The notes under the pieces are model-generated. The model was not told the origin of the DNA, ran no database searches, and saw nothing but the letters and a program-made list of their open reading frames with translations. Shown here piece after piece: positions 2-35,375 of a stretch of 64,000 nucleotides of DNA. Positions within the stretch are counted from its first letter, which is position 1, and each line of letters opens with the position of its first letter. The position numbers and the translations under genes were made by a program. The DNA lies in NCBI GenBank assembly GCA_021156365.1, contig JAJNDK010000011.1, positions 1-64,000 of the forward strand. Reading direction: 5' to 3'. The DNA is from Bacteroidota bacterium (lineage in GTDB: Bacteria > Bacteroidota > Bacteroidia > B-17B0 > Aurantibacillaceae).

Positions 2-1672
2 ACATGGACAGTAACTGCAACAGATGTAAACGCTTGTTCTGCATCTATAAACTTCACCATTACAGAACCTTCTCAAATTTCTTTCACCGCTTCTTCACAG
101 ACAAACATTTCCTGTTTTGGCGGAAATACCGGTGCGTTTGAAGTTAATGCAGCAGTAGGCGGAACAGGTGGATTCATTTACGACTGGTCACCCGGCAATC
201 CAACAGGTGACGGAACAACTTCTGTCAGCGGATTAACTGCAGGAACATGGACAGTAACTGCAACAGATGCAAACGCTTGTTCTGAATTTATAAGCTTCAC
301 CATTACCGAACCGTCTGCTATCACTTCCACACTGACTGTAACGAATTGCGATACCTATACACTGAACGGAACGAGCTACACTACTGGCGGAACCTATACG
401 CAGGTGCTTGCAGGAGCAAGTGCTACCGGGTGTGACAGCACGATCACACTGAACCTGACGATCCTGCAATCAACTGCCTCCGCACTGAGCGCAATAGCAT
501 GCGACAGCTATACGCTGAATGGAACAACGTACAATACAAGTGGAACTTATACGCAAAATCTTACGAATGCAGCAGGTTGCGACAGTATACTTACACTGAA
601 CTTAACAGTGAACCAGTCTACAACGTCAACACTGAACGAAACAGTATGTAGCTCTTACACACTGAATGGTACTACTTACACTTCAAGTGGAACATATACA
701 CAAAGCTTTACGAATGCGGCAGGTTGTGACAGCACACTTACACTAAACTTAACTGTGAACCAGCCTACAACGTCAACATTAAACGAAACGGCTTGCAGCA
801 GCTATACACTGAACGGAACTACTTATAATGCAAGTGGAATCTATACACAAAGCCTTACGAACGCGGCAGGTTGCGACAGCACACTTACATTGAACCTCAT
901 AGTGAATCAGCCGACAATGTCTTCATTCACAGAAGTAACATGTGGCTCTTACACACTGAATGGTACTACTTACACTTCAAGTGGAACATATACGCAAAGC
1001 TTTATGAATGCGGCAGGTTGCGACAGCACACTCACATTGAACTTAACAGTGAATCAGCCTACAACGTCAATACTGAACGAAACGGCTTGCAGCAGCTACA
1101 CACTGAATGGCACCACTTACACTTCAAGTGGAACATATACACAAAACCTTACGAATGCGGCAGGTTGCGACAGCATTGTCACGCTGAACCTGACCGTAGC
1201 GACTGCAATTGATATAACAACATCCACGGTAGCAGAAACGATTACCGCTACGGCCACAGGAGCTGCTTACCAATGGCTCGATTGCGACAGTGGCAGCGCT
1301 CCGATCCTGAATGAGACCAATCAGTCGTATACGGCAACTGCCAACGGAAATTATGCAGTAGTGGTAACAGTTGGTTCCTGCTCCGACACCAGCGCCTGTG
1401 TGAATATTGCAGGCATCGGTATCCGCACGGTGAAGGACGCAGCGCTTATCCGCCTGTATCCGAACCCTTCCACTTCCGGGATCTTTACACTGGAGACCGC
1501 TAAGGATGCAGTGATCAGTATCAGCACTTCACTTGGAGCAGTGATCCTGGAGAAAAGCATAAAAGCAGGAACAGAAAGCATCGATCTGCATACCGAAGCG
1601 AATGGTGTGTACTTTATGCAGCTGAGAAGTGAAGGAACTACACAGATCATTAAGATCGTGAAACAGGAATAG
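2..1672 (+). CDS. Secreted repeat protein with T9SS sorting domain (5' partial)
   Basis: The frame is open from base 2, so the true start lies left of the window; 556 residues are visible. The first ~110 residues are SprB-type repeats (CFGGNTGAF..., WTVTATDxNACS occurs twice 81 residues apart). Then come six copies of a ~49-residue unit built on C-x-SYTLNGTTY...SGTYTQ...NAAGCDSTLTLNLTV, between about 341 and 1199. The C-terminus holds the YPNPSTSGIF motif and ends in IKIVKQE, a type A T9SS sorting domain that is cleaved when the protein is moved to the cell surface or medium. The unit repeats at 147 bp with high DNA identity, so copy number probably changes by recombination. The role is likely adhesion or gliding; the ligand is unknown. 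A strong terminator follows. Confidence 0.9.
   Translation, partial: TWTVTATDVNACSASINFTITEPSQISFTASSQTNISCFGGNTGAFEVNAAVGGTGGFIYDWSPGNPTGDGTTSVSGLTAGTWTVTATDANACSEFISFTITEPSAITSTLTVTNCDTYTLNGTSYTTGGTYTQVLAGASATGCDSTITLNLTILQSTASALSAIACDSYTLNGTTYNTSGTYTQNLTNAAGCDSILTLNLTVNQSTTSTLNETVCSSYTLNGTTYTSSGTYTQSFTNAAGCDSTLTLNLTVNQPTTSTLNETACSSYTLNGTTYNASGIYTQSLTNAAGCDSTLTLNLIVNQPTMSSFTEVTCGSYTLNGTTYTSSGTYTQSFMNAAGCDSTLTLNLTVNQPTTSILNETACSSYTLNGTTYTSSGTYTQNLTNAAGCDSIVTLNLTVATAIDITTSTVAETITATATGAAYQWLDCDSGSAPILNETNQSYTATANGNYAVVVTVGSCSDTSACVNIAGIGIRTVKDAALIRLYPNPSTSGIFTLETAKDAVISISTSLGAVILEKSIKAGTESIDLHTEANGVYFMQLRSEGTTQIIKIVKQE
344..1199 (+). repeat. Six in-gene tandem repeats, ~147-bp period
   Basis: Copies start near 347, 500, 647, 794, 941 and 1088 (the Cys codon). 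Spacing is 153 bp for the first copy and 147 bp for the rest. The copies are nearly identical at DNA level over blocks such as GGTTGCGACAGC. They encode the Cys-x-SYTLNGTTY unit of the surface protein. Confidence 0.85.
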
Positions 1673-1732
1673 ATCATCACCTGTTGGTGACAAGCTGCTA
1701 TAGGCAGAGGCAATACCAACAAAGGCTCAAAG

Positions 1733-1778
1733 AAAGGCTGCTTTGCCCCGGGAGATCGGGTGGAAGCAGCCTTTTTTG
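1733..1778 (+). terminator. Rho-independent terminator of the T9SS protein gene
   Basis: AAAGGCTGCTT (1733-1743) pairs perfectly with AAGCAGCCTTT (1764-1774) and runs into a T tract. It lies 60 bp after the stop codon and separates the gene from the palindrome array. Confidence 0.85.
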
Positions 1779-1790
1779 TTTTAGGTCCGG

Positions 1791-2307
1791 TAAGTCAGAC
1801 CGTAATTGACTTACCTAAGCTGTAAAACTTCAACAAGTCAAATGTAATTTGACTTAGCCATTTTTGTCTGCTCGGACAAGTCAAGCCACATTTGACTTAT
1901 CTATTCGAAGCAATTCAGGTAAGTCAAATCCGAATAGACTTAGCTTTCATGAAGATAATAAGTAAGTCAAAAGCCATTTGACTTAGCCTTTTTCACTTAT
2001 TCGGACAAGTCAAACCGCATTTGACTTATCTATTCAAAGAAATTCAGGTAAGTCAACCCGGGTCTGACTTACTTTTTATGAATGCTTTCGGCAAGTCAAA
2101 ATCAATTTGACTTATCCTTTTTTGCATAGTATCGCAAGTCAGACCAGAACTGACTTATCCATCCGGAGTAATTCAGGCAAGTAAGGAGCAGCACGACTAA
2201 GGACTTTATACCGGCCCGGACAAGTCGAAGGAAGTGTAACTGAGCCTTTGTGCCACCACTTATCGCAAAAAAATAACCACTTGCAAAGTCACAAGGGTCC
2301 TGACTTC
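1791..2307. repeat. Array of 23-bp palindromes with exact 43-bp period
   Basis: The consensus unit is YAAGTCA-N9-TGACTTA. Units start at 1791, 1834, 1877, 1920, 1963, 2006, 2049, 2092 and 2135; each step is exactly 43 bp. Two degenerate units follow in register at 2178 and 2221, and one more at 2285 that is out of register. The arm spacer is always 9 nt. The 20-nt intervals are not unique: every third one is alike (for example TCTATTC-aa-AATTCAGG after the units at 1877, 2006 and 2135), giving a 129-bp higher-order repeat. As 43 is not a multiple of 3, the TGA/TAA in the arms falls in every frame on both strands, so the array is non-coding. 43 bp is about four helical turns, which puts all palindromes on one DNA face. 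It could be a multi-site binding platform or a row of hairpins. Confidence 0.9.
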
Positions 2308-2371
2308 GATTTTAACGCTTATTAAGCAACATTTTGAAAAGCATTGCCGTTGTATAACAGAAAACGAAGCG

Positions 2372-3067
2372 ATGTCAGTTAAAGTAAGATACCTGCCGCA
2401 ATCGGATGCCGACCGGATGGTCTGGCTGAATAATTTTGCGTCTAAATTAGGGATCCATGCCACGGTGTTAGAGATATCTCCCGCAGAACTGAGCGATGTA
2501 CAAAAGGATGCCGTCTGTTTTCAATACATCCTGCAATTAGTTGAGCTCTACAAAAACACCCTGCCTTCCCTGGTAAGCTATAAGAACCTGCTCAGGAATG
2601 CTTCCGGGCAGAAACAGCCAGGTCCGCCTTCTTTGCCGGTGCTTCCGGTGCCGCCACCGCTTGTGAGGGAAGGTATATTTGACCGGGTAAGTCTGTTAGT
2701 GAAACGAATTAAGGCAAGCCGGCAGTATAGTGAATCAATAGGACTTGATCTTGGGATCATTGCGCCTGTACGTGTATGGGACAAAACAGAGCTGAAGCCC
2801 CTGCTTCGTGTAAAGCTACAAGGACCACTTCCATATGTGAAGAGCAGCAAAGGAATAACAACAGCGATGGACCTCTATGCAGATCGTAATGACGGACGGG
2901 GATTTGTATTTATAGGTCGTTTGACGAGAGCACAATACCTGGATAAAACGCCTTTACCAGCAGAGGGCGAATTTTTCGAATGGAAGTACAAGGCCATATT
3001 TGTGATCGCCGATAAGCAGGTGGGGCAGATGAGCAACGCCGTAAGTGTAGTGCTGCGAAAAGCCTGA
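2372..3067 (+). CDS. Conserved hypothetical protein beside the palindrome array
   Basis: 231 residues with no signal peptide or membrane segment, so probably cytoplasmic. The N-terminal part (YLPQSDADRMVWLNNFASKL, then ~70 helical residues ending YKNLLRN) is followed by a Pro-rich linker (residues ~80-98, PSLPVLPVPPP). A beta-rich C-terminal half comes next (LKPLLRVKL...KGITTAMDLYADRNDGRGFVFIGRLTRAQYLD), reminiscent of a fibronectin-III-like sandwich. I have seen similar hypothetical proteins in Bacteroidota but know no function for them. The ATG lies 64 bp after the last unit of the palindrome array, and the gene ends 6 bp before the convergent gene at 3074. A functional link with the array is inference from position only. 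Confidence 0.7.
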   Translation: MSVKVRYLPQSDADRMVWLNNFASKLGIHATVLEISPAELSDVQKDAVCFQYILQLVELYKNTLPSLVSYKNLLRNASGQKQPGPPSLPVLPVPPPLVREGIFDRVSLLVKRIKASRQYSESIGLDLGIIAPVRVWDKTELKPLLRVKLQGPLPYVKSSKGITTAMDLYADRNDGRGFVFIGRLTRAQYLDKTPLPAEGEFFEWKYKAIFVIADKQVGQMSNAVSVVLRKA

Positions 3068-3073
3068 GCGATC

Positions 3074-3484
3074 TTAATCGTCACCCGCAAGTATCCTGCA
3101 GGCGACACGCACAACGAATGGCCAGAGCTCTCCCTTGTCAATAGCATCCTGTATGCTCCCTTCCCGTTCCCGCATTTTTTCTTTTTTCAATAGCTTGCCC
3201 TGCTCATCGTAATAATACCAGGTACCCCGCTTCATGTCCTTTTGAAAATACATGCGGATCCTCAGCTGCCCGTTCTTATGGTAATAAAGCCATTCACCAT
3301 CCCGGATCCGTGTGCCCTCCATGTAATTCCCTACGATCTGCATAGTCCTCGTGCCTTCGTAATAAGCAATGTAATTATAGCTTTTGCCATTGATGGTGAA
3401 GGTGGTATCCTGCGCAGCAAGCCGGGTCGCTCCGTTGCAGAACAGCAGGATAAAGAAGCAGCTTCGCAGAAGGAAAGTACTCAT
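3074..3484 (-). CDS. Exported MORN/YwqK-like repeat protein
   Basis: 136 residues. A signal peptide covers about residues 1-24 (STFLLRSCFFILLFCNGATRLAAQ). The middle has two tandem MORN_2-type motifs, GEWLYYHKNGQLRIRMYF and GTWYYYDEQGKLLKKE, the pattern of YwqK-family proteins. That family is often labelled 'toxin-antitoxin system YwqK antitoxin', but nothing here suggests a toxin partner. The acidic, helical tail (REGSIQDAIDKGELWPFVVRV) is unrecognised. It is a single gene, convergent with the gene ending at 3067. Likely periplasmic or surface located; role unknown. Confidence 0.75.
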   Translation of the reverse strand: MSTFLLRSCFFILLFCNGATRLAAQDTTFTINGKSYNYIAYYEGTRTMQIVGNYMEGTRIRDGEWLYYHKNGQLRIRMYFQKDMKRGTWYYYDEQGKLLKKEKMREREGSIQDAIDKGELWPFVVRVACRILAGDD

Positions 3485-35102: not shown

Positions 35103-35116
35103 CTGCTATTTCGATC

Positions 35117-35347
35117 CGAATTGCAGCTAATCCGATCCGAATTGCAGTTGGTACGATCGTACTTGAAACTAATCCGATCCGTATTGATGCTGGTACGATC
35201 CGAATTGCAGCTAATCCGACCCGTATTGATGCTGGTACGATCCGAATTGCAGTTGGTACGATCGTACTTGAAGCTAATCCGATCGGTATTGCAGCTGGTA
35301 CGATCATACTTAAAGCTGATCCGATCTGTATTACAGTTGGTACGATC
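35117..35347. repeat. 21-bp tandem array, 11 units
   Basis: Units of exactly 21 bp such as GAATTGCAGCTAATCCGATC(c), GAATTGCAGTTGGTACGATC(g), TACTTGAAACTAATCCGATC(c) and GTATTGATGCTGGTACGATC(c). Two end types, CTAATCCGATC and TTGGTACGATC, mostly alternate. Every unit contains (C/A)GA-TC-like GATC except one (GACC). Junctions make palindromes such as GTACGATCGTAC. 21 bp is two helical turns. The array lies between a terminator and a convergent gene. As 21 is 7 codons, several frames stay open and read as heptads, which explains spurious ORFs. Confidence 0.88.
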
Positions 35348-35375
35348 AGATTTTTTAGTAATACAAGGAAAACTG

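Follow-up and report, generated by a model that had tools for sequence, protein, structure and literature searches.

A tandem array of palindromes near the beginning of the window (the whole analyzed stretch of 64,000 nucleotides from contig JAJNDK010000011.1 of a Bacteroidota bacterium) and the small-protein gene downstream of it apparently constitute one undescribed two-part locus. No published description of such array-gene loci was found, with subscription papers and preprints being outside the coverage of the search. Loci of this type recur many times in environmental Bacteroidota. For most homologs of the small protein in other Bacteroidota, the first family in the following, a tandem array was found upstream; its sequence differs from locus to locus, and the periods are 21, 22, 42, 43, 44, 63, or 84 bp. 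Non-coding repeats of a kind usually dismissed as minisatellites are now tied to two uncharacterized protein families of the Bacteroidota, and spacing can stay conserved while the sequence is free and locus specific. The association with the genes and the pitch, the private sequence of the arrays and their conserved core are direct observations. They are best accommodated, with a rough probability of 0.45, by a row of phased, often dyadic DNA binding sites for a locus-specific factor; we infer that these sites have a reader and influence the gene.

Table 1. Features of the array loci in the 64,000-nucleotide window
Feature	Position	Strand	Basis
Terminator-like hairpin (GGCTGCTT, 1736-1743; AAGCAGCC, 1764-1771) with T-run, ending the upstream gene	1736..1777	+	Read from sequence
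Locus-specific AAGTCA-N9-TGACTT array, 11 units, exact 43-bp steps	1791..2242	.	Sequence, motif count, unit table
LytTR-like double direct repeat ACCACTTAT-12bp-ACCACTTGC, common to most such loci in the genome	2255..2284	+	Sequence comparison, published sites
Twelfth palindrome, in part overlapping the shared CAAAGTC promoter element	2286..2306	.	Sequence, unit table
Linked small-protein gene, 231 aa, N-terminal helical domain and C-terminal fibronectin-III-like domain	2372..3067	+	Profile searches, structure prediction
Second array, different sequence (CGATCCGTATTG...), 21/42-bp pitch, without helical-FN3 gene	35105..35348	.	TRF and sequence

The sequence-only reading of the window that preceded this analysis had described eleven palindromes, nine of them near-perfect and two degenerate, at an exact step of 43 bp, and this was confirmed without any insertion or deletion. 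The near-perfect arms begin at positions 1792, 1835, 1878, 1921, 1964, 2007, 2050, 2093, and 2136, and the degenerate units at 2179 and 2222. When up to 2 mismatches were allowed, AAGTCA-N9-TGACTT matched 11 times in the 64-kb window compared to 3.3 matches expected from shuffles, with none of 100 shuffles of the window reaching 11, and 10 of these 11 matches are located inside the array region. The super-period of three units (129 bp) that had also been noticed is real, with TRF finding periods of 43 and 129 bp, and the presence of stop codons in all frames was borne out by six-frame counts of 4, 3, 14, 9, 9, and 9. A twelfth unit had been placed out of register. This palindrome is indeed present at position 2286, 64 bp past the eleventh unit, and the step from 2222 to 2286 comprises about 1.5 units, which means that the twelfth palindrome is offset by about half a unit.

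The window array begins 14 bp past the terminator-like hairpin of the upstream gene (Table 1), which was omitted by the consensus terminator scanner because its loop is too long for this scanner. The array is not part of a leader, being preceded by this hairpin and followed by LytTR-like and ECF-like promoter elements. Positions 2 to 1672 of the window encode a secreted protein with a type IX sorting domain and in-frame repeats of 147 bp, and repeats of similar sequence with a 147-bp period are also located at positions 336743 to 337462 of contig C16.

A motif search in the whole genome (5.3 Mb) identified AAGTCA-N9-TGACTT arrays at two places only, the window and positions 75.10 to 75.65 kb of contig C9. 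The C9 array contains 13 units, is located between two convergent genes, which encode a GH1 enzyme and KdsB, and likewise closes with a 64-bp step (5570 to 5634 in L007). Its steps are mostly 43 bp, with steps of 42, 43, and 41 bp occurring, so that the exact 43-bp step holds for the window array and not for this second one. The two arrays have little in common except for arms and pitch: when the 24 units tabulated for them are taken together, conservation reaches 97% at the twelve arm bases compared to 63% in the loop and 54% in the linkers. Without selection acting on the arms, this pattern would be difficult to account for. A change of both inner arm bases in the unit at 2136, which had been regarded as compensating, was seen in 1 of the 24 units, and the second array has mostly an A opposite a C at the inner-arm position; these data therefore do not support kept pairing outside the six arm bases.

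A search for the motif in other Bacteroidota, as had been proposed, yielded matches in 18 of the 120 genomes of relatives, which were essentially single and chance-like. In a genome of the same genus, the array is absent from the kdsB locus, and the region adjoining the conserved OmpA-like neighbor contains neither array nor linked gene among the genes read. The sequence-only reading had let its functional interpretation depend on conservation of the 9-nt gap or the 43-bp period in related genomes. The exact motif, the gap, and the period are not kept in relatives, so that this interpretation would fall if taken literally; the half-pitch of 20 to 22 bp and the adjacent gene, which that reading had missed, are kept, and a function of the array is supported on these other grounds. 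The opposite alternative, a one-off decayed minisatellite, is excluded because the same arms recur in a second array, because they are conserved, and because arrays with a pitch of about 21 bp are widespread.

The protein encoded next to the window array gave nothing above noise in Pfam, NCBIfam, PHROGs, and PADLOC. According to structure prediction and structure comparison, the proteins of the first family combine an N-terminal half that is a helical bundle with a fibronectin-III (FN3) domain at the C terminus. A second family of small proteins came to light via a 42-bp array on contig C12 that precedes one of its members. In six of its 19 members, the C-terminal half gives a match to Pfam fn3, and the N-terminal half of the family is taken to be helical, as judged from the amino acid sequence. 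No homology between the two helical-FN3 families was detected (hhalign probability of 1%). The linked protein possesses no recognized DNA-binding domain, and its helical domain has no convincing fold match; none of the 49 chains compared exceeded a Z of 4.3 with the N-terminal domain, which by itself does not make it a new fold. The linked proteins are also not consistently basic. No relatives were found as tblastn matches in phage or plasmid records or in viral contigs, and a phage- or plasmid-borne element was rejected for this reason. The genes in the neighborhood of the array loci revealed no shared third component and no conserved regulator gene close by.

The association of arrays and genes was evaluated with a strict periodicity test applied to about 900 bp upstream of the gene. 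It was positive for 49 of 65 family loci versus 4 of 514 ordinary genes (P = 3.5e-52; odds ratio of about 390), with 26 of 37 loci of the first and 23 of 28 loci of the second family contributing. In the control set, 6 of 516 same-genome genes were positive, and two of these six were family members; none of 34 kdsB flanks was positive by the strict test. About a quarter of the family loci failed this test, some of them due to short or degenerate arrays. Weak arrays were confirmed by comparing k-mer distances with those of shuffles, a test in which the 3' flanks were nearly always negative. Most arrays are positioned 50 to 850 bp upstream of the helical-FN3 gene. In L091 and L093, the array is located 3' of the gene, and in L076 and L082 none was seen. 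Locus L108 contains a CRISPR array (43 to 3284) with a 47-bp repeat 0.7 kb upstream of the helical-FN3 gene, probably by chance. Four loci (L116, L132, L143, and L156) have a common 5' leader, TTTACCTCTCCTGTAGTATGCAGG...CCTGCAGGACAGGTAAA, at most 170 bp before the start codon, which can form a long hairpin, and other clades have different shared 5' leaders.

A free fit of the pitch between 17 and 30 bp to 50 strong cases resulted in 21.0 bp in 39 of them, 22.0 bp in 5, 20 to 20.5 bp in 4, and 21.5 bp in the window array with its 43-bp step of 2 × 21.5 bp; the remaining case was a CRISPR array. The arrays have a length of about 7 to 22 units. Two turns of B-DNA correspond to 21 bp, so that protein sites on one face of the DNA would be a natural reading of this pitch. 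The register is fully held in the window array, as it is in L102, where 16 units of 22 bp with a mean mutual identity of 48% are all at offset 0, and in L103, 2 units are out of register. Column conservation was uneven in 9 of 9 arrays tested, an unevenness to which shared ancestry of the units can contribute and which it can inflate. Dyads with P < 0.05 were present in 20 of 54 arrays (combined P = 3e-14), with many arrays having no significant dyad, and this pattern fits dimeric sites in a subset of the arrays.

These features can be compared with those of arrays that carry no function or that are translated. If the arrays were neutral or recombinogenic minisatellites, slippage and unequal exchange would create and homogenize them, and such an origin of functionless repeats might be visible in the local amplification of three-unit (129 bp) and 86/171-bp blocks and in the unequal homogeneity of the orthologous loci L102 and L105. 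This explanation is improbable nevertheless, because some 50 arrays from many genomes adhere to a single narrow pitch, the register is mostly preserved at an identity of about 48%, two arrays have the same conserved arms, and the tie to two gene families is strong. A lack of preferred pitch, uniform decay, and loss of the register with divergence, the marks of neutral minisatellites, were not what was found. That the arrays encode a heptad-repeat peptide, with 21 bp being 7 codons, is still much harder to credit. Several of the arrays with a 21-bp pitch have at least one open frame, but the window array has stops in every frame, and the codon-phase signal was not significant in 25 arrays (combined P = 0.09). 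Together with homologous loci at a pitch of 20, 20.5, 21.5, and 22 bp, this excludes coding as a general explanation.

The similarity between arrays follows the proteins and not the genomes. Likeness of the motifs was consistent only for loci with proteins at least 80% identical (three pairs), and arrays within one genome are hardly more alike than arrays across genomes, indicating that a single host factor with one motif cannot read all of them. Private array sequences are also expected from concerted evolution. The eight arrays with a 22-bp pitch all fall into a single clade of the protein tree (95/91 support, one change). Several genomes contribute to this clade, and two of them contain 21-bp loci as well. 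This indicates that array and gene descend together, which would agree with recognition by the linked protein, but linked inheritance alone may make the period follow the protein tree.

On its promoter side, the window array is followed by the double direct repeat given in Table 1. In several loci, this repeat precedes the sequence TGTAAC...CGTTATA, which we take to resemble an ECF-sigma promoter. The exact double site is present in 29 copies in the genome compared to about 0.26 expected copies. The 29 exact sites, CCACTTR-n14-CCACYTR, make up a regulon of some fifteen genes that are unrelated to each other and that, as judged by eye, in many cases encode signal peptides. Sequence and spacing of the double site at 2255 to 2284 are as in the published LytTR sites ACCACTTAT-12bp-ACCGCTTAT and ACCACTTAC-12bp-ACCACTTGC (PMC6193735).

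The arrays may be enhancer-like elements for LytTR-family regulators, with its own regulator for each locus. Their pitch agrees with the published geometry, in which 9-bp direct repeats with gaps of 11 to 13 bp result in a pitch of 20 to 22 bp, a canonical double site is located at the promoter, the genome contains 46 matches to the LytTR domain, and one homologous locus, L067, has a LytTR gene adjoining the array. However, the units matched LytTR 9-mers no better than chance when a LytTR site model was run against permuted columns (Fisher statistic of 105.9, 108 degrees of freedom, P = 0.54; P = 0.93 for the window array alone), and an assignment of the units to known LytTR sites that looked good by eye failed statistically. 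Inverted arms are unfit for direct-repeat binding, and no conserved regulator gene was found nearby, which leaves this explanation unlikely. Other genes with the double site do not have an array of their own, with one of them sharing the array of its divergent neighbor. This indicates that the array goes with the helical-FN3 genes and not with LytTR control in general.

Alternatively, the arrays may function at the RNA level. A separately transcribed array could provide hairpins or 21- to 22-nt units as a scaffold or small-RNA source for the neighboring protein. For either strand, the folding of the window array as RNA is much stronger than that of shuffles (z of -8.8 and -11.7), dyads are enriched across the arrays, and private repeats next to a dedicated protein recall CRISPR and TIGR loci. 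On the other hand, a strong folding score is to be expected of any row of palindromes, a significant dyad is missing in many arrays, the inner closing pair is not maintained by compensation, and there is no evident reason for a fixed helical-turn spacing in RNA. The Rfam scan identified tRNAs only and no match for the array, and no promoter-like site was found before the window array by a simple sigma-70 scan, which covers Bacteroidota promoters poorly. An RNA-level element is doubtful when both sides are considered.

Arrays without a helical-FN3 gene are also present in this genome, the contigs of which were read by stretches in a sample of 0.86 Mb. The second window array (Table 1) is situated directly past a terminator-like hairpin and is flanked by a gene of the ECF-sigma type and, in convergent orientation, a lipoprotein-like gene. 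On contig C16, a third 43-bp array at 65555 to 65944 (L168) has GGTATA-N9-TATACC arms in the same geometry and is located between convergent genes, and a 42-bp array at 129579 to 129780 (L171) is positioned between purH-like and divergent YiiX-like genes and has no helical-FN3 neighbor.

Following the reading as a row of binding sites, the array would act as DNA, providing sites that are in phase at intervals of two helical turns and are often dyadic. A locus-specific and sequence-specific factor may fill these sites cooperatively on one face of the helix, and the bound patch would control the neighboring promoter. Since the array travels and diverges with the neighboring protein, this protein would be the simplest candidate for the reader, with a co-diverging regulator as the alternative. 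Orphan arrays such as that on C9 could be targets in trans, with the counterpoint that there is no promoter to be controlled where an orphan array lies between convergent genes. The multimeric protein-binding platform on one DNA face, which the sequence-only reading had listed among its candidates, is still the best-fitting idea and is partly supported. More specifically, the small helical-FN3 protein may recognize its own private phased array, a tentative and rather unlikely proposal by which the loci would constitute a new class in bacteria and a dozen or more mutually orthogonal pairs per genome would be possible. If this protein or another locus-specific factor reads its own array, many orthogonal DNA-recognition pairs could be obtained from these loci, and the arrays would be cis elements of a new kind.

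Several known systems share features with these loci. The LytTR sites of the HdrR/BrsR type (PMC6193735) are direct repeats with a pitch of 20 to 22 bp upstream of a promoter; in contrast, the arrays described here are long, private to each locus, often with inverted arms, and fail the LytTR site model. RemA, a regulator without a classical DNA-binding motif, binds cooperatively to poorly conserved repeated DNA (PMC8481266) and protects 7-bp regions at 3-bp intervals (PMC8481266), whereas the pitch is about 21 bp here and searches of the linked proteins revealed neither a LytTR-like nor a RemA-like domain. TIGR-Tas loci (PMC12045711) also have locus-private arrays, some of them palindromic, that adjoin a dedicated protein. 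Tas proteins have a Nop domain, while the linked proteins are composed of a helical domain and FN3; the Nop family was absent from the Pfam matches of 12 linked-protein members up to an E value of 1, and TIGR-Tas was rejected because the adjacent protein has no Nop domain. CRISPR loci likewise have regular repeats adjoining a gene. The arrays here are without unique spacers and have a pitch of about 21 bp, and a CRISPR assignment of the window array was rejected since its linkers recur every third unit and no cas-like gene was among the immediate neighbors read. REP/BIME elements are tandem intergenic palindromes, sometimes between convergent genes. They were rejected because no more than two places in the 5.3-Mb genome contain the exact motif; unlike REP/BIME, the arrays have a sequence that is private to the locus instead of genome-wide, and a fixed pitch.
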